From NCBI RefSeq assembly GCF_008065135.1, contig NZ_CP042914.1:3224001-3288000 (forward strand): a stretch of DNA of 64,000 nucleotides, written 5' to 3'. The notes below the pieces were generated by a model. That model was given only the letters and a program-made list of their open reading frames with translations. It had not been told where the DNA came from and did no database searches. The translations under genes and the position numbers were made by a program. Origin of the DNA: Roseimaritima ulvae. GTDB taxonomy: Bacteria; Planctomycetota; Planctomycetia; Pirellulales; Pirellulaceae. This document shows positions 54,997 through 62,798 of the stretch, piece after piece. The stretch's first letter is position 1; each line of letters starts with the position of its first letter.

Positions 54997-57594
54997 GTGT
55001 CTGATACCGATCCCCCATCCAACGATGCGCCCTCGGACGATTCCTGGTCCGGTCCCGGGCCGCTCCATGACCAGCCCACCTTGGCGTCGGATACGGCCAA
55101 TGACGCGGGCGATTTCGATCTGCAAGTAGCGGCGGTCGACATCCCCACGGAAATTGCTGGATATCGGATTGAGCGACTGATCGGCAGTGGCGGTATGGGC
55201 CGGGTGTATCTGGCGGTGCATGGCCCGATGGAGCGGACCGTGGCTCTGAAGACGCTGTCGGCCGACCGGATGGGCAGTGAGAAATCGATCAGCCGTTTCT
55301 ATAGCGAAGTCCGGGCGGCGGGTCGGCTGTTGCACCCCAATATCGTGACGGCCTTTGATGCCGGGGAAGCCGAAGGCATTCACTTCCTGGCGATGGAATT
55401 CGTGGATGGTCCGACGCTCAGCACGGTGGTCGCCGAATCCGGACCGCTCAGCGTCTCGGTGGCCGTGGATATTCTGCAGCAAGCCGCCACGGGGTTGTTG
55501 TACGCGCACCAAGCTTCGATCGTGCACCGCGACATCAAGCCCGGCAACTTGATGCGGGCTCCGAACAACGTCGTCAAGCTGGTCGATTTGGGCTTGGCCA
55601 CCGTGGGAGCCGACGTCCGCGACCAATTGGACTCGGGCCGCCTGATCGGGACGGTGGAATACATGGCGCCCGAGCAGTTGGACCAAGCCGATCGCGCGGA
55701 CGCACGCTCCGATATTTACGCGTTGGGGGCTACGTTCTATTTTCTGCTGACCGGAAGCACGCCCTATGAAGGCCCGTTGCTCGAGCAGATTCGCGGCCAT
55801 CGCGAAGGTCCCGTGCCCGATCTGTGCGCCGTCCGCCACGATGTCGACGTGCGGCTCGATCACGTGTTGCGACGGATGATGGCCAAACGACCTCAAGATC
55901 GATACGCCAGCTTGGCCGAACTGTTGGAGGACCTGGAACACTGGCGGCACGGGGACGCACAGCGCAGCGGGGTGTTGATCGTCGAACCGTCGGCTGCCGA
56001 AGTTCCCACCCGCTTCAGCGACACCACTTCGACTGCTTCGTCCGATGTGCTGGGAATCGATCTGGGCATGTTCTACGGTTCGGCTGCCAAGGCCAACCCG
56101 GTCGGTCAGATCGAACCGCTGTTTGCCGGCGGTGACGACAAACCGCTGCTGCGTCTGGCCATTGGCAGCCGTCGGGACAAGGTGTTCTTTGGGGCCGCGG
56201 CGATGGCTTACCGCAATACCCATCCACAACGCGTGACGCATTGTCTGCCGTTGTACATCGGACAAGCGGTCGTCGAACGCCGAGTAGCCGGAGAATGTTG
56301 TCCGCCCGAAGTGCTGTTGGCGATGATGCTGCGACATCTGGGCGAGAACGCTTGGACCGGCCAATCACCGCCACGGGCCGCGGCTGTCACGATTCCCTCT
56401 TGCTACGACCAAATCCATCGTCGCGGCATGCTCCAGGCTTGCCAGGTGGCCGGCATGAAAGAGGTGCGTCTGATCGACCGCAGTGTGGCTGCCGCTCAGG
56501 CCGTGTTGATGGATGAGATGACGGACGATCCCGATTCACTATCGATCGAACCTCAAAACCAGTTGGTCGTCTGTATCGTCGGCAACACCACCGAAGTGGT
56601 GCTGCTGCGGAGGGTCGCCGGCCGTGTGCAACAATTGGCGATCGCCGGTCGCTGGCATACGGGGGTCTTGAACTGGCAACAAAAATTGGTCGATCTTGCG
56701 GCCGAGCAGTGTTTGCGAAAATACAAAGTCGATCCGCGGCGATCATTGGCCGATGCCACCGCCCTGCAGATCGCATGCGAACGGTCGCTGAACCAGTTGA
56801 TGCTGCAGAACTCCACGCGGATTCGCTTTAAGGCCGAAAACGAACTGCGCGAATTGGAAATCAGCCGCGACGCAATGTTCGCTGTGGGACACGGTTGGCT
56901 GAGCAGTTTCGGGGAGATGCTGCGTCAGGTAACGACCGACGAACGGCTGGAAGGACAACCGATCCATAAATGCATCACCGTCGGGCAGATGTCAAAAATG
57001 CGACCGATCCGCCGGATGTTGCGATCCGCCGTGGGGCCGCAGGCTTCATTTGTGGCCGTGGAACGTGCGGACCTGGCTCGTGGGGCGGCGATTGCCGTGG
57101 CCGGTGAACTGCCGGGCCGCGATGGCATTCCTCTGCCCCCATTGGCCTGTACGCCGCATGACCTGGGCGTCTTGGTGCTGGCCGACCGCAGCGAGAAGAA
57201 GCACGTCCGTCCGATTGTTCCTCAAGGCACCGCTCTGCCCGCCCGCACCCATCGACGGCTGAACCCCGCCGGTCATGGCGACGATCCTCAGACCCTGAGT
57301 GTTGCCGAAGCGACCGATTGGGAAGCCACCAAATGGCGCTCGCTGGGCAGCCACCGCTTGCCGGCCGCGGCTTCCAGTGCCGGCTCCGCTTCGTCTTCCT
57401 CCGCCGCGCCGGTAGAATTAGGCTTCGAAGTCGACAGCAACGGTTTGTTGGCGATTCGGATCCGGGATCCGGCATCGGGGCAAACCGATCGACTGCCGAC
57501 CTTGCCTCAGCCGACATTGAGCTCCGCTGAAATCAGGCATTGGCAACAATGGATCAACGATCTGGGCGTGTTCCACGGCCGTGTCTTTTCCTAA
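54997..57594 (+). CDS. Ser/Thr protein kinase fused to an Hsp70-like domain
   Basis: The 865-residue protein begins with an acidic, Ser/Pro-rich stretch and a complete Hanks-type kinase (about 55-315): glycine loop GSGGMG at 63-68, Lys85 in VALKTL, the HRD triad His177-Arg-Asp179 with KPGN at 181-184, DLG (for DFG) at 197-199 and APE at 224-226. A second half (about 350-720) resembles an Hsp70/DnaK ATPase: GIDLG at 353-357, then AVTIPSCYDQIHRRGML with ACQVAGMKEVRLIDRSVAAA (like the Hsp70 helix IIB region). The second phosphate loop is degraded (CIVGNTTEVVLL instead of DLGGGTFDVS). The C-terminus of about 150 residues is unknown. The start is GTG at 54997. Kinase activity is likely; the chaperone part may be a scaffold or partial ATPase. 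Confidence 0.88.
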   Translation: MSDTDPPSNDAPSDDSWSGPGPLHDQPTLASDTANDAGDFDLQVAAVDIPTEIAGYRIERLIGSGGMGRVYLAVHGPMERTVALKTLSADRMGSEKSISRFYSEVRAAGRLLHPNIVTAFDAGEAEGIHFLAMEFVDGPTLSTVVAESGPLSVSVAVDILQQAATGLLYAHQASIVHRDIKPGNLMRAPNNVVKLVDLGLATVGADVRDQLDSGRLIGTVEYMAPEQLDQADRADARSDIYALGATFYFLLTGSTPYEGPLLEQIRGHREGPVPDLCAVRHDVDVRLDHVLRRMMAKRPQDRYASLAELLEDLEHWRHGDAQRSGVLIVEPSAAEVPTRFSDTTSTASSDVLGIDLGMFYGSAAKANPVGQIEPLFAGGDDKPLLRLAIGSRRDKVFFGAAAMAYRNTHPQRVTHCLPLYIGQAVVERRVAGECCPPEVLLAMMLRHLGENAWTGQSPPRAAAVTIPSCYDQIHRRGMLQACQVAGMKEVRLIDRSVAAAQAVLMDEMTDDPDSLSIEPQNQLVVCIVGNTTEVVLLRRVAGRVQQLAIAGRWHTGVLNWQQKLVDLAAEQCLRKYKVDPRRSLADATALQIACERSLNQLMLQNSTRIRFKAENELRELEISRDAMFAVGHGWLSSFGEMLRQVTTDERLEGQPIHKCITVGQMSKMRPIRRMLRSAVGPQASFVAVERADLARGAAIAVAGELPGRDGIPLPPLACTPHDLGVLVLADRSEKKHVRPIVPQGTALPARTHRRLNPAGHGDDPQTLSVAEATDWEATKWRSLGSHRLPAAASSAGSASSSSAAPVELGFEVDSNGLLAIRIRDPASGQTDRLPTLPQPTLSSAEIRHWQQWINDLGVFHGRVFS

Positions 57595-57634: not shown

Positions 57635-58822
57635 ATGTCTTCGCCCTGGACCGTCTCGCAGTTAACCGAACGCGTCAAATCGACGCTCGAATCCAGCTTT
57701 CCCAAAATCAGCGTGCAGGGCGAAGTCACGGACCTGTCCCGTCCCTCCAGCGGCCATTTGTACTTTACGCTCAAGGATTCGCGAGCCCAAATTCGCGGCA
57801 TCATTTGGCGCAGCACCGCGGCCCGCTTGCCATTTAAAATCGCCAACGGGCAGGAACTGATCTGCTGGGGCGATGTGGAGGTCTACGCGGCCCGTGGCAG
57901 TTACCAACTGGTGATTCGCAAAGCGGTGCCGCAGGGGATGGGCAGCCTGCAGTTGGCGTTTGAACAATTGCGTCAGCGGTTGGCGGCCGAGGGCTTGTTC
58001 GAACCCGGACGCAAACAACCGATCCCCGCCTTTCCTCGCCGCGTGGGGTTTGTGACCAGTCCCGGCGGCGCGGCGATTCGCGATTTTCTGGAAGTCGCCG
58101 CGCGGCGTTCGGCGGCCGTGCAAATCGTCTTGATTCCGGCTCAGGTGCAAGGCGACGGCGGGGCGGAGAGCATTTGCCGAGGGATCGCCGCCGCCCACCA
58201 GATCCGACCGCAACTCGACGCCCTGGTCGTGGGCCGCGGGGGCGGCAGCCTGGAAGACCTGTGGTGCTTTAATGAAGAGCCGGTGGTGCGAGCGATCGCG
58301 GCCGCTCGGTTGCCTACTGTCTCGGCCGTGGGCCACGAAATCGATGTCACGCTGGCCGACCTGGTGGCCGATCGCCGCGCGCTGACGCCCAGCGAAGCGG
58401 CAGAGCTGTTGGTGCCCTCGGCCGAAGAATTAACGCAGTCCTTGCGAACATTGCAGCAGCGTTTGCTGCGGCCTGTCCAGCACCGCCTGCAAAACCTTCG
58501 CGACCGCTTGCAAGCCGTCGAATCGCGGACCGTGTTTTCGCGGCCGCACGACGGCGTCAAGCAACTTCGTCGGCGACTGGACGAACTGGACCTGCGAGCC
58601 GGACGCGCGGTGCGGTACGATTGCGATCGGGCTCGGCAGCGACTCGGTACCGCCACCGCCTCGCTGGAAGCGCTCAGTCCCTTGGCCGTGCTGCATCGCG
58701 GCTACAGCGTGACCACCGATGCAACCACTGGCAAACCGCTCCGCGACGCCGACCAAGTAAACGCCGGCGACCAGATCACCACCCGCCTAGAAGCAGGCAC
58801 CATCCGCAGTCGGGTGGAGTGA
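57635..58822 (+). CDS. xseA: exodeoxyribonuclease VII large subunit XseA
   Basis: The 395-residue catalytic subunit of the single-strand exonuclease. It has the OB-fold N-terminus (VKSTLESSFPKISVQGEVTDL), then LVIRKAVPQGMGSLQLAFEQ and the conserved nuclease region PRRVGFVTSPGGAAIRDFL, LVVGRGGGSLEDLWCFNEE and VSAVGHEIDVTLADLVADRRA. The helical C-terminus ends AVLHRGYSVTTD. The ATG at 57635 is 40 bases after the kinase-Hsp70 stop. Its small subunit is 30 kb away at 27016. Confidence 0.95.
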   Translation: MSSPWTVSQLTERVKSTLESSFPKISVQGEVTDLSRPSSGHLYFTLKDSRAQIRGIIWRSTAARLPFKIANGQELICWGDVEVYAARGSYQLVIRKAVPQGMGSLQLAFEQLRQRLAAEGLFEPGRKQPIPAFPRRVGFVTSPGGAAIRDFLEVAARRSAAVQIVLIPAQVQGDGGAESICRGIAAAHQIRPQLDALVVGRGGGSLEDLWCFNEEPVVRAIAAARLPTVSAVGHEIDVTLADLVADRRALTPSEAAELLVPSAEELTQSLRTLQQRLLRPVQHRLQNLRDRLQAVESRTVFSRPHDGVKQLRRRLDELDLRAGRAVRYDCDRARQRLGTATASLEALSPLAVLHRGYSVTTDATTGKPLRDADQVNAGDQITTRLEAGTIRSRVE

Positions 58823-58842: not shown

Positions 58843-58905
58843 GTAGCATGGGCCCCCGGCCCGTGGAGTTCTAGCAGCAAGCCCACGGGCCAGGGGCCCA
58901 TGCTA
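58843..58905. repeat. inverted pair of GGGCCCCCGGCCC repeats between convergent genes
   Basis: GTAGCATGGGCCCCCGGCCC at 58843-58862 faces CACGGGCCAGGGGCCCATGC near 58883-58902, with about 18 bases between. The stop codon of the downstream minus-strand GTPase gene (58903-58905) is in the second copy. A bidirectional terminator hairpin is inferred. Confidence 0.85.
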
Positions 58906-60717
58906 CGCGCCTCCGGCGCTTAACAAGAACTCGGCGTCGGCCAACTGCGAGTTGTTCCAGCGCAACCTTAACACGCCCTCGCGCTGCAAGCGGGTGATCG
59001 TTTCATCGTGCCGGCGTCGGATGTGGTCTTCCGCGGCGTTGACGCTGCTGGCTCGCTGGCTCCAGGTGATCACCAGCATCGCGAACAGCGAGGTCGGCAA
59101 CAACGACAGCAGCAAACTGGTTAGCAACATCGACAACTCTGGCCGGGGGAAGCGTTCCAGCGGTCCGCCACCATCACGGAAGGTTTCGTAGCTGGCCGTG
59201 ACATACTGGCCATATAGTGACAACACGGGGGCTGCCATAAATCCCCAAAAGATCGCCGTCCCAATCATCGCCAATAGCATTACCAACCAGGACGATAGGG
59301 CGCGGCGACGAATCTCTTCGTCGAAAATCCGCTGCGATTCTTCTTGTAAGGCATCGATGCCCGCCAGGTAAGCGACCTGAGGATCGGCTTCCTCCTCGAC
59401 GTCGACCGCGTGGTCATCTTGGTCCGACACCGCCGACATTAACTCTCGCAGTTGATCATGAAACCTCGCGATTGGCGGCCCCAACCGGTCGACCACCGCG
59501 GCGCTGCTGCGCCGCCGCAGACCGTCACGGAGGTCTCGTTCGACGTCCCCACTGCGATTTAGGTTGCGGGCGCTGGTCCAGGCCGCGGTGATCAGCGAGG
59601 GCAGGCTGCCCGACAGCGACAGCACCACGCGATCCCAGGCACCGTGGGTCAAATTAAACAGACCCAACAGCGTGCGGTACGGAAACCAGATGGCGGCCGT
59701 GTCGGTCAGCAGGGACAGTCGCAGTTTGGAGCGGATGCCGGCGCGCAATGCTTCTCGCCCCCCGACCAGCGACAAAGCCACGTCGCGGGGCAGCTGTTGG
59801 GCTTCGGCGTTTAATTGTTCGACCGCTCGGGTCAGCCCCGGCAGGTGTTCGCTGAGCGTCGTCCGCAGGGATTCACGGAACCGTGCATCGACGGCCGCCA
59901 GACGAATTCGGCGCCGTCGGTCGTCCGTCAGGTGTCCGTCCAGGTAGGGCCTTAGCAGTCGGGTGAGTTGAGCCAGGGCGGTGGACGCGGCGCTGGCTTC
60001 GTCGATCGACTGGACGTCGAAATCAGGGATCAGGATGGGGGCCAAGATGGTTCCCGCCGGGGCGGCGGAGCGCATTCGCGCCACCAATGTATCGGCGTCG
60101 GCCGCCAGTTCGGGATCGTCGGCATCGCGGACGGCATTGATCACCGGCACCACCAATGTGCCTTCGCCCAGGGTGGTCAGCACGCTGACGGTTTGGCTGC
60201 GCAGTTGATCGCGGCGGACCACCATGATCAGCACGGCCGCTAAGGCCAGCGCTCGCCGCGCCGTTTCGGCGATTTCCTGATCGTCATCGGTGGCCCCGGG
60301 CGTGTCCACCAACACGTACGGGCCTCCCAATGCGTGCATCGAAGCCGCATCACAATGCAGGAAACGTTCGCGTCGTTGATCCAGATCGGTGGGCGGTTGC
60401 GGTCCGATCCAGGTCAGCCGCCGCGTGGATTCGTCGTCGCGGTTACCGCTGGGGATCGCCTGTTCGGCGGCGGTGCCGCGGACCACCTGTTTGGCCAGCC
60501 AGGATTTGCCCTGTCCGGCAGCGCCTACGATCGCGACCACCGTGGCTCCCACCGCGCGGTCTTGCATGATGGAGCGTCGGGAGAGTCGATGGTCGGCGCA
60601 CAGTCCCGCCACGTCGCGTCCCGCCGGGCTGTCGCCCAATACCGTCACCGCGGCACGGCGCACACGCTGCAGAAACCGGTCGCCGGGATCGGTAAATTCC
60701 AGTTCGGATTCGATCAT
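58903..60717 (-). CDS. membrane-anchored P-loop GTPase, second gene of the pair
   Basis: A 604-residue protein with a P-loop of the form GxxxxGKS (GAAGQGKS at 65-72) and a G3-type DTPG at 138-141, with DQLRSQTV-like switch text nearby; the G4 motif is not classical (VINAVRDADD). The centre is a long helical domain (LPGLTRAVEQLNAEAQQL, then YRTLLGLFNL). Two membrane segments sit near 480-512 (WLVMLLAMIGTAIFWGFM) and 540-565 (MLLTSLLLSLLPTSLFAMLVI), so the C-terminus is membrane-anchored. It overlaps the preceding GTPase gene by 4 bases (ATGA). It resembles bacterial dynamin-like or YcjX-type membrane GTPases without a clear match. Start ATG at 60717. Confidence 0.8.
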   Translation of the reverse strand: MIESELEFTDPGDRFLQRVRRAAVTVLGDSPAGRDVAGLCADHRLSRRSIMQDRAVGATVVAIVGAAGQGKSWLAKQVVRGTAAEQAIPSGNRDDESTRRLTWIGPQPPTDLDQRRERFLHCDAASMHALGGPYVLVDTPGATDDDQEIAETARRALALAAVLIMVVRRDQLRSQTVSVLTTLGEGTLVVPVINAVRDADDPELAADADTLVARMRSAAPAGTILAPILIPDFDVQSIDEASAASTALAQLTRLLRPYLDGHLTDDRRRRIRLAAVDARFRESLRTTLSEHLPGLTRAVEQLNAEAQQLPRDVALSLVGGREALRAGIRSKLRLSLLTDTAAIWFPYRTLLGLFNLTHGAWDRVVLSLSGSLPSLITAAWTSARNLNRSGDVERDLRDGLRRRSSAAVVDRLGPPIARFHDQLRELMSAVSDQDDHAVDVEEEADPQVAYLAGIDALQEESQRIFDEEIRRRALSSWLVMLLAMIGTAIFWGFMAAPVLSLYGQYVTASYETFRDGGGPLERFPRPELSMLLTSLLLSLLPTSLFAMLVITWSQRASSVNAAEDHIRRRHDETITRLQREGVLRLRWNNSQLADAEFLLSAGGA

Positions 60718-62798
60718 TTATTTGTCAGTCGAGGAAGTTGTTCTTGGAGTTCGGTTTCGAATGCCTTGCGTGTTCGCCACAGGATCATGGCTTCCCCGAC
60801 GGGCTCGTGTTGGCGGATCGAAGGCAGCGGCAGGGCGATGTCTTTGTTGCCCACTGTGACATGCATCGGCTCGGTGGTGCGGGGCACGCCCAGGGTATCG
60901 CACAGCACGGCCGTGAAGTCGCTCAACTGCTGCATGGCGGCCTGTTGCCCGACGCTATTGGTCGTTTGCTTGCCGCTCCAATACGTGGCGAATGCACTCA
61001 ACCCCGCCGCGGCCAGCAGTTCGGGAATCGATGCCGAAGCCACCAGCATCGTGCCGCCGAAGTCGACCGGGATCAGCAACACCGCGCCAAAGGCCGCCAG
61101 GGAAGCGGTCAGAGGCGTTAGGCCGGCGGATAGCTTCTTGGTGATCGGGACCTCTTTCCACATCTGCCGCACCGAGTCGTCCAGCCGCTTGGCATCCAGA
61201 GCCGTGAAATCGTCCCGTTCAAATCGTTCGATCGTTTCGGTGGACAACCGCGTTAACTGTTCGCCATCGGGATGGCCTGCCAAGCGGTCCACGGCGCCGT
61301 GTTGCCGCAAGGCGTAATCCAATCGCTCGGCCGTCAGGATGCCTCCGAATTCGCCTTTGGTCATCGATTGCCGCACCTCGTTGGCTTTCTGGCGAGCCAC
61401 CGCGGTGGGGACGATCTGGCGAAATAGGTCTTTGGTGCCGCCGATGACCTTAGACACATACGCGTTCATCCGCACACCCCAACGAGCGTACCAGGGAGCG
61501 GAAGCCGAAAACGCATCGGTCAATTGACGCACAATCCGTTCGGATTGATGCAGCCTCAGTTCGATAATTTGGCCGCCGGGTTGGCGGTTGGCGAAAAATT
61601 CCAAGGCCGATGCCAACAACATCTGCCGCACCCGCTCCGCTTCGCGTTCACAGGCTTCCGCTCCGGCTTGCAAAGCCCCCAGCCCTTGGTCCCATACCGC
61701 GGTTCGCAACGCCGCCTCCAACGCGATCCGAAACCGGTTGAACAATTTGGCGCGATCCAGTTGCCGTGGTAATTGATTCAAAAACCGATCGCGGGAAATC
61801 GCCGCCGGTGGATGATCGTCGGGGTTATCGGTCAACGAGAAAAACACCGGCAGCGGGTCGTCGTCGCTGTCGGACCGCCGGGGAGCGTCGGGGTCGGTGG
61901 GGATATAGGGACGACTCTTGTCGATGTCAAAATCATAGGCCGCGTAAATCGTTTCCACGCGATACTGTTCCGCCAAGGGTTGGAAGGTCTCCCAAACCTG
62001 GTCGGGTGACTGGCGGGGGCGAATTTTGTTGACCGCCAGCAGACGCGGTACGCCGGGCATCAGGTCGGAGGCGATTCGCAGATGGTCGGCCAGGTCGCGG
62101 TCGCGAAACTGTTCGGGCGTCGTGACCACCAGAAACGCCGAACACAGCGTCGCCGCGCGGCCTAACAGATCGCGTCGAGTCTCCGGATCGCCGCGGCCAA
62201 ACGAACTGTCCGACACGATATCCGGACAATCCAACAGCCCCACGCCGGCCTCGTCCAAGCCCGGGTCGGTGGCTACCAAGGGCACCGACAACAGCGCCGG
62301 GTCGCCGGCGTCGTTGTTGTATTGGCGATGCGCGGTTGCCAGGTCGTCGGACAACATCTCCGGCGGCTGGCCGAGCGTTTCTCCGATCCGGCTGAGCAAC
62401 AAGCCCCACAGTTCGGCATCATTCCGCCAGGCTTCGGGCAGCCACAGCACAAAGCGGTGTGTGCCTTCGCGGTTGTTGGCGCCTCGCAGCGAACGCCGCT
62501 GCCCTGCAGGGCTTAGAAAACTAGCCACCAAGCTGGTTTTGCCGCTGTTCAACATACCCGCGATCGCCACCGTCGGTTGTTCGGCCAGCGGGGCCGCCCG
62601 TTCCAGCTGGCGGCCGGCGGCGAGCACTCCCTCGGCGGCTTGAGCATCGATCCGCCGCAACGCGGTGAGGAAACTTTCGCGTCCCGGATTCGGATACAGC
62701 CGTTCGGCCGCCGCTCGCCGGTCATCGTCTTCGAGCAACGGCAACAGCTGCGCCCATCTCACATGTTGCTCGTCGCGAGTTTTTCCGAATCCAAACAT
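60714..62798 (-). CDS. dynamin-like P-loop GTPase, first gene of the pair
   Basis: About 694 residues. A P-loop GMLNSGKTS (81-89) is followed by a G3-type DCPD (LLDCPDIVSD) and a G4-type NKIR (AVNKIRPRQSP). The C-terminal third has long helices (ERIVRQLTDAFSASAPW, then KANEVRQSMTKGEF) and a hydrophobic pair (LTASLAAFGAVLLIPVDF and PELLAAAGLSAFATYW at about 585-625), a possible membrane hairpin. The pattern GTPase head, helical stalk, membrane hairpin is that of bacterial dynamin-like proteins. ATG at 62798 is preferred; TTG at 62807 is possible. It is translated with the second GTPase through the 4-base overlap. Confidence 0.8.
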   Translation of the reverse strand: MFGFGKTRDEQHVRWAQLLPLLEDDDRRAAAERLYPNPGRESFLTALRRIDAQAAEGVLAAGRQLERAAPLAEQPTVAIAGMLNSGKTSLVASFLSPAGQRRSLRGANNREGTHRFVLWLPEAWRNDAELWGLLLSRIGETLGQPPEMLSDDLATAHRQYNNDAGDPALLSVPLVATDPGLDEAGVGLLDCPDIVSDSSFGRGDPETRRDLLGRAATLCSAFLVVTTPEQFRDRDLADHLRIASDLMPGVPRLLAVNKIRPRQSPDQVWETFQPLAEQYRVETIYAAYDFDIDKSRPYIPTDPDAPRRSDSDDDPLPVFFSLTDNPDDHPPAAISRDRFLNQLPRQLDRAKLFNRFRIALEAALRTAVWDQGLGALQAGAEACEREAERVRQMLLASALEFFANRQPGGQIIELRLHQSERIVRQLTDAFSASAPWYARWGVRMNAYVSKVIGGTKDLFRQIVPTAVARQKANEVRQSMTKGEFGGILTAERLDYALRQHGAVDRLAGHPDGEQLTRLSTETIERFERDDFTALDAKRLDDSVRQMWKEVPITKKLSAGLTPLTASLAAFGAVLLIPVDFGGTMLVASASIPELLAAAGLSAFATYWSGKQTTNSVGQQAAMQQLSDFTAVLCDTLGVPRTTEPMHVTVGNKDIALPLPSIRQHEPVGEAMILWRTRKAFETELQEQLPRLTNK

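Follow-up and report, generated by a model that had tools for sequence, protein, structure and literature searches.

An overlapping pair of P-loop genes in Roseimaritima ulvae with the predicted architecture of a divergent dynamin-like pair

We analyzed a stretch of 64,000 nucleotides from the planctomycete Roseimaritima ulvae (contig NZ_CP042914.1, positions 3,224,001 to 3,288,000; hereafter, the window) in which two intact P-loop open reading frames (ORFs), denoted A and B, lie on the minus strand and overlap by the sequence ATGA (Table 1). The results make it probable that A and B represent a diverged form of the bacterial dynamin-like protein (DLP) pair and act as two subunits of a hetero-oligomeric, membrane-anchored machine, and they support a dynamin-like pair as the predicted architecture. 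A preliminary description of the window had reported two P-loop genes (motifs GMLNSGKTS and GAAGQGKS) with a 4-base overlap, long helical stalks and C-terminal hydrophobic segments. The coordinates, strand and motifs were all verified, long helices are present in both predicted models, and the two hydrophobic segments per protein also hold in family-averaged hydropathy.

A and B are real genes, as full-length frames are retained both in congeners (76–82% identical for A and 72–78% for B) and in other members of the family (24–58% and 21–56%, respectively); the two broken copies (B in L070 and A in L101) are found in draft contigs. For A, we chose the ATG start, 9 bases downstream of the mechanically called TTG. 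The gap of −4 between the genes recurs in 11 of the 51 adjacent full-length pairs of relatives, and the ATGA overlap presumably provides for translational coupling.

Motif conservation was counted over alignments of 65 A rows and 48 B rows. The P-loop signature GxxxxGK[ST], the G1 motif of the dynamin superfamily, is present in both proteins, with lysines that are invariant throughout both alignments. Candidate G2 threonines, placed by position only, are T113 in A (65/65) and T98 in B (45/48), and B carries the G3 motif DxPG, its proline and glycine conserved in 46/48 rows. In genome G218 (L062, L031), a divergent pair includes a B without a P-loop (the L062 B is outside the alignments); because B lost the P-loop there while A keeps it, the sequences suggest that A is the indispensable nucleoside triphosphatase (NTPase) in that genome. 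A and B each match twice in G218, 6.9 kb apart and with equal scores, owing either to a duplication or to an assembly effect.

Both families show two hydrophobic segments ahead of the C-terminal helix. In A, the 19-residue windows 560–578 and 585–603 reach family mean hydropathies of 2.05 and 1.62, and the hairpin turn between the segments is a conserved P-x-D-x-G (P577, D579 and G581 in at least 90%). The hydrophobic windows of B, 483–501 and 532–550, are joined by a linker of about 30 residues and are likewise seen in family averages.

AlphaFold models were built from 65 sequences for A and 48 for B (mean predicted local distance difference test score 84.8 and predicted template modelling score 0.76 for A; 83.1 and 0.63 for B) and were judged by structural alignments and secondary structure. 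The long helices span residues 349–402 in A and 263–291, 293–318 and 389–431 in B. When the models were compared to the PDB with Foldseek, the dynamin superfamily headed both lists, in accord with the dynamin-like fold proposed in the preliminary description. For A, SynDLP was the best match (9.7e-7), followed by Drp1, IniA, EHD, Fzo1 and the Campylobacter jejuni DLP pair 5owv, and each of the 34 rows with E no higher than 0.001 was a dynamin-superfamily or EHD chain; for B, the best match was BDLP 2j69 (5.4e-8), followed by Drp1, MxA, SynDLP, Fzo1 and LeoA, and 42 of the 43 rows at this level belonged to the same groups, the exception being 2www. With VIA-align, A aligned to MFN1 (5yew) with Z 18.3, root mean square deviation (rmsd) 6.6 and 316 aligned residues from 7 to 694 of the model, compared to about 13 for Era. 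The head-only dynamin rows align 205–240 residues, so that some 80–100 additional residues are matched outside the head, and this span beyond the head fits a dynamin neck in the predicted model. B aligned to Fzo1 (9kff) with Z 18.1, rmsd 4.0 and 261 aligned residues, from 8 to 603. Thus, a neck, consisting of the head-flanking helices and the C-terminal helix, and a long trunk are found in both predicted models, for B not in all mitofusin rows.

The two genes are strictly associated across the genomes sampled from the family. Among 100 genomes of the window's family, A and B give strong matches in the identical 30 genomes and neither does in the other 70 (weak short B matches in G206, G223, G281 and G278 were counted as noise); by genus, A is present in 17 of the 68 genera sampled. 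The probability that the two sets coincide by chance is 3e-26 by genome and 2e-16 by genus, although kinship among the genomes makes the true figure less extreme. In 21 of the 30 pair-bearing genomes the genes are neighbors; in the other 9 (G204, G211, G235, G256, G269, G274, G284, G285 and G295) they lie apart, and yet both are kept. In 8 of these 9, the 1.0 to 1.5 kb examined behind A held no B; in G295, 25 kb of contig follows A, and B is on another contig. A scan of a collection of genomes from 84,980 species with the A profile confirmed 93 stretches, and 80 of these were retained; it used planctomycete-derived peptide patterns, so that distant kin elsewhere would escape. By title, 77 of the 80 come from planctomycetes, including Rhodopirellula baltica and R. 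europaea; the remaining three are L139, L108 (labelled "bacterium") and L142 (a contig of 4.9 kb labelled "Verrucomicrobia"). Full-length A was found in 73 loci, with a B match in 56, and 51 loci hold complete, adjacent A and B, separated by −10 to 50 bases in 47 of them. Among the 17 A loci without B, 9 have more than 9 kb behind A, whereas in 3 the sequence stops no more than 1.1 kb beyond A, so that these are uninformative. A correlation of 0.918 between A and B distances (42 shared rows) was not used as evidence, given that shared descent alone could produce it.

These distributions bear on several claims of the preliminary description. It had named an ordinary soluble GTPase or the lack of pair conservation as outcomes contrary to its proposal, and we observed instead a dynamin-type predicted fold and co-occurrence in 30 of 30 genomes. 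The suggestion that the pair is chromosomal core was too strong: 70 of the 100 family genomes lack a strong match, and in the 199-genome phylum samples the only strong match was in the window's own genome, which is weak evidence of absence as at most 5 or 6 candidates were scored per genome. The pair is clade-restricted, not core. The proposed link to the internal membranes of planctomycetes is also weakened, given that these samples show the pair in a single family and that a symbiont of the Pseudomonadota carries it as well.

That symbiont is Candidatus Thiobius zoothamnicola (L139), which we take to be gammaproteobacterial, and its contig also encodes, by reading of the sequence, polynucleotide phosphorylase, RpoD and ClpA-like proteins. 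The genes of its diverged A (709 residues) and B (594 residues) share a single base, and rpoD comes after B; the two proteins are 27% and 22% identical to A and B of the window. In a quick tree of A, L139 is a very long branch of unsure placement between two planctomycete groups. Around L139, no other full-length match was found among 274 genomes of the class and 96 of the family (itself included), where P-loop matches covered only 36–69 columns. Given its presence in L139, an invention of the pair within the planctomycetes is not established. The same genome separately encodes a clear Dynamin_N protein (L147, 1432–2928, plus strand; 3.2e-13), which the A profile matches weakly (1.6e-5).

Searches with sequence profiles were far less telling than the structural comparison. 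For A, nothing was matched in Pfam, NCBIfam or PADLOC at E up to 1. MMR_HSR1 (3.9e-5) was the only Pfam family above its cut-off for B, with weaker matches to LeoA of PADLOC (E 0.0051) and to Dynamin_N (E 0.072, below the cut-off). Single-sequence and profile searches of the PDB gave no informative relative for A or B, and PHROGs gave nothing for B beyond matches of P-loop length. Weak matches to Dynamin_N (E up to 0.1) occur in 17 of the 48 B relatives and 6 of the 65 A relatives. When the R. ulvae genome was searched with Dynamin_N, the one frame above the cut-off (486 residues with two GTPase stretches) was presumably Der, and B of the window scored E 0.19; this search is unspecific, with matches in all 14 control genomes. 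Of two second matches in the same genome, L004 has CxxCH motifs and no P-loop, and L002 is weak (E 0.12 over 42 residues). YcjX/YcjF, DUF3482/DUF2868 and SrfC were tried as candidate families and rejected: none appeared in Pfam at E up to 1 for the window proteins or among the 15 families found for the A relatives, and among the best 25 of 49 and of 36 families for the B relatives, Virul_Fac (SrfC, PF10139) appeared once. This match, in 1 of the 48 B relatives, that of L139, has E 1.1e-4 and 21.1 bits, below the cut-off of 28.1.

Several observations weigh against the dynamin assignment. No Dynamin_N match exceeds the Pfam cut-off of 27 bits: A of the window has none, B scores 13.6 bits, and the best score among the relatives seen is 22.3 bits, for B of L139. 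Other profiles are commoner, namely AAA_22 in 31/48 and MMR_HSR1 in 28/48 B relatives, and AAA_16 and MMR_HSR1 in 8/65 A relatives each; because Dynamin_N matches fewer of the relatives than these AAA and MMR_HSR1 profiles do, we lowered our confidence in the assignment slightly. The profiles of A and B resemble each other only weakly (probability 5%, E 0.0076). In place of DxPG, A has DxPD, with D193 in 65/65 rows. The G4 motif [NT]KxD was not found in either protein: in A, N257 is invariant (65/65), K258 is present in 38/65 and residue 260 varies among R, P, K and E, without a D in any row; in B, columns 195–202 contain no conserved K, and D201 occurs in only 26/48. On the structural side, the lead of Fzo1 over EF-Tu (16.4) for B is less than 2 Z units, and some mitofusin rows for B span only the head and the next helix; because this margin is narrow, the assignment of the B trunk leans on the BDLP match and the order of helices. 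Whole-chain template modelling scores are low for both models, about 0.14–0.33, so that the trunks are only loosely compared. Since G4 is missing in both proteins and A carries DCPD, the description of the pair as GTPases is unproven and should be dropped for now; the nucleotide may be other than GTP. Because G4 is missing and Dynamin_N stays below its cut-off, we describe A and B as working like a DLP pair and not as certified members of that family.

Some of these observations would be expected if A and B were a membrane-anchored P-loop switch that regulates or gates an envelope complex, such as an ExbB/TolQ channel, without reshaping membranes. B has an MMR_HSR1 domain, EF-Tu and Era fit it nearly as well as Fzo1, and the commonest neighbor of the pair, present in 27 of 73 loci, is a MotA/TolQ/ExbB-family gene (MotA_ExbB, 1.1e-27) that comes immediately after B on the same strand; in one further locus such a gene lies upstream of A, and in L065 it overlaps B by ATGA. 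Of the 30 family genomes with the pair, 15 have this gene after B, including 5 in which A is elsewhere (G211, G235, G274, G284 and G285). However, ExbB-family genes (E up to 1e-10) occur in all 100 family genomes, with or without A and B, and the best copy of the window's genome (69% identical) is located about 110 kb from the pair, not behind B, which argues against a required ExbB/TolQ role. Furthermore, the predicted neck, trunk and hairpin are unexpected for a simple switch, and we consider this alternative unlikely. Where the gene follows B in L065 (13956–14822) and L095 (14096–14884), no adjoining ExbD/TolR was noticed in the ORF lists, in which no dedicated search was made.

Ordinary soluble GTPases of the ribosome-associated or assembly type, adjacent by chance, would account for MMR_HSR1 as the sole Pfam family of B and for the good scores of EF-Tu, Era and Der-like chains; this explanation is barely credible given the two strongly hydrophobic segments in each family, the dynamin-type chains at the head of the structural lists and the strict co-occurrence of A and B. 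A dynamin system of defence or stress response that works on membranes upon phage infection or damage, in the manner of LeoABC or Bacillus DynA, would agree with the weak LeoA match of B and the patchy presence in the family, and DynA is reported to protect against phage (PMC8844932). Nevertheless, A has no tblastn match among 72,556 plasmid and 50,697 phage records (B was not searched), relatives of one genus group together in the quick A tree, and no defence gene was noticed among the neighbors of the pair, which were not scanned with PADLOC; a defence role thus appears very unlikely.

Table 1. Features of the A–B pair and its flanks, in window coordinates
Feature	Position	Strand	Remarks
Gene A	60714-62798	minus	694 residues from ATG; P-loop protein, predicted dynamin-like fold, hydrophobic hairpin
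Gene B	58903-60717	minus	604 residues; P-loop protein; dynamin-like fold predicted; two hydrophobic helices, probably transmembrane
ATGA overlap (4 bases)	60714-60717	minus	Stop of A = start of B
A Walker A/G1 GMLNSGKTS, residues 81-89	62532-62558	minus	G81, G86, K87 in 65/65 rows
A G3-like DCPD, residues 190-193, without Gly	62220-62231	minus	D190 64/65; P192, D193 65/65
A hydrophobic hairpin, residues 560-603, putative membrane-inserting	60990-61121	minus	Family mean hydropathy
A C-terminal helix, residues 678-687	60738-60767	minus	Model; within range ends of mitofusin alignment
B Walker A/G1 GAAGQGKS, residues 65-72	60502-60525	minus	G65, G70, K71 in 48/48 rows
B G3 DTPG, residues 138-141	60295-60306	minus	D138 48/48; P140, G141 46/48
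B hydrophobic helix 1, residues ~476-501	59215-59292	minus	Model and family hydropathy
B hydrophobic helix 2, residues ~528-553	59059-59136	minus	Model and family hydropathy
Sigma-70-type ORF	from 63032, extends past window edge	plus	Flanks pair
ORF labelled xseA in the preliminary description (no family search made)	57635-58822	plus	Flanks pair

The rpoD and xseA surroundings of the pair are mostly local to the genus. The flanking ORFs that had been described as rpoD and xseA are indeed present in the window, but of 73 loci only 1 has the xseA homologue near the pair and only 6 have a sigma-70 gene there, and a link between rpoD and the pair, for all that rpoD is also found in L139, was dropped on the latter count. 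Upstream of A, a kinase gene (Pkinase 4.5e-51, with a weak dCache match) is present in 14 loci and a gene that we take to be CoaX-like in 9. Elsewhere in the window (54997–57594, plus strand), a single protein fuses a Ser/Thr kinase domain (Pkinase 8.8e-44) with an HSP70-like domain (4.5e-27). In G167, a genome of the same order, an ORF of 418 residues overlaps one of at least 630 residues (L150, 1–3133, minus strand). The longer one has an MMR_HSR1 match (3e-7) and, judged by eye, a hydrophobic part toward its C-terminus; the two ORFs are possibly a further two-gene membrane NTPase unit.

Taken together, the favored dynamin-like reading translates into a model. Each subunit would comprise a P-loop head that binds nucleotide, a long helical trunk, a hydrophobic hairpin reaching into the inner membrane and a predicted neck to which the helices on either side of the head and the C-terminal helix contribute. 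By analogy with mitofusins and with Campylobacter DLP1/DLP2, binding and hydrolysis of a nucleotide by the paired heads would swing head against trunk, and this movement would tether, bend, fuse or cut the membrane. We infer the heteromer, the nucleotide cycle, the side of the membrane and the remodelling itself. Most bacterial DLPs are reported to be encoded as operon pairs (PMC6104087, PMC6162298), side by side (PMC6104087) and with a division of labor in which one partner binds the membrane (PMC6162298). Planctomycetes lack FtsZ (PMC4910669), and it is conceivable, if distinctly improbable, that a heteromeric, mitofusin-like integral-membrane pair without the guanine-specificity motif acts with an ExbB/TolQ channel in shaping, fusing or cutting the envelope of these bacteria. 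Given that 70 of the 100 family genomes showed no pair, any link to division is speculation.

If the dynamin-like reading is correct, planctomycetes that can be cultured, Rhodopirellula and Roseimaritima among them, possess a mitofusin-shaped pair with altered nucleotide motifs that profile libraries do not recognize, and bacterial dynamin pairs extend to a phylum with unusual membranes and FtsZ-free division. The pair would then also illustrate how divergent dynamins can escape Dynamin_N searches. As judged from titles and the openings of abstracts, we found no published record of a planctomycete dynamin pair.

Among known systems, the likeness to Virul_Fac is confined to 52 residues in the P-loop region of B from L139. 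The EHD proteins, a dynamin-like branch termed ATPase in the titles of its PDB entries, resemble A (EHD2 and EHD4; Foldseek 5.8e-6 to 9.7e-6, VIA-align Z 13.8–14.5), but have no transmembrane hairpin and possess an EH domain. Mitofusin and Fzo1 are eukaryotic proteins of the outer mitochondrial membrane with canonical GTPase motifs and only 11% identity to A and B; nevertheless, they provide the best VIA-align rows for both proteins, and mitofusin shares with their predicted form a membrane hairpin in the trunk. The C. jejuni pair Cj-DLP1/DLP2 and the BDLP of Nostoc differ in that the identity in structural alignments is 11–14%, A and B lack G4 and both partners of the A–B pair have two hydrophobic segments. 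In common with these systems, A and B are encoded by two adjacent genes and have a predicted head, neck, trunk and hydrophobic part; BDLP is the best structural match of B, and the Campylobacter structures 5owv and 5oxf are matched by both models.

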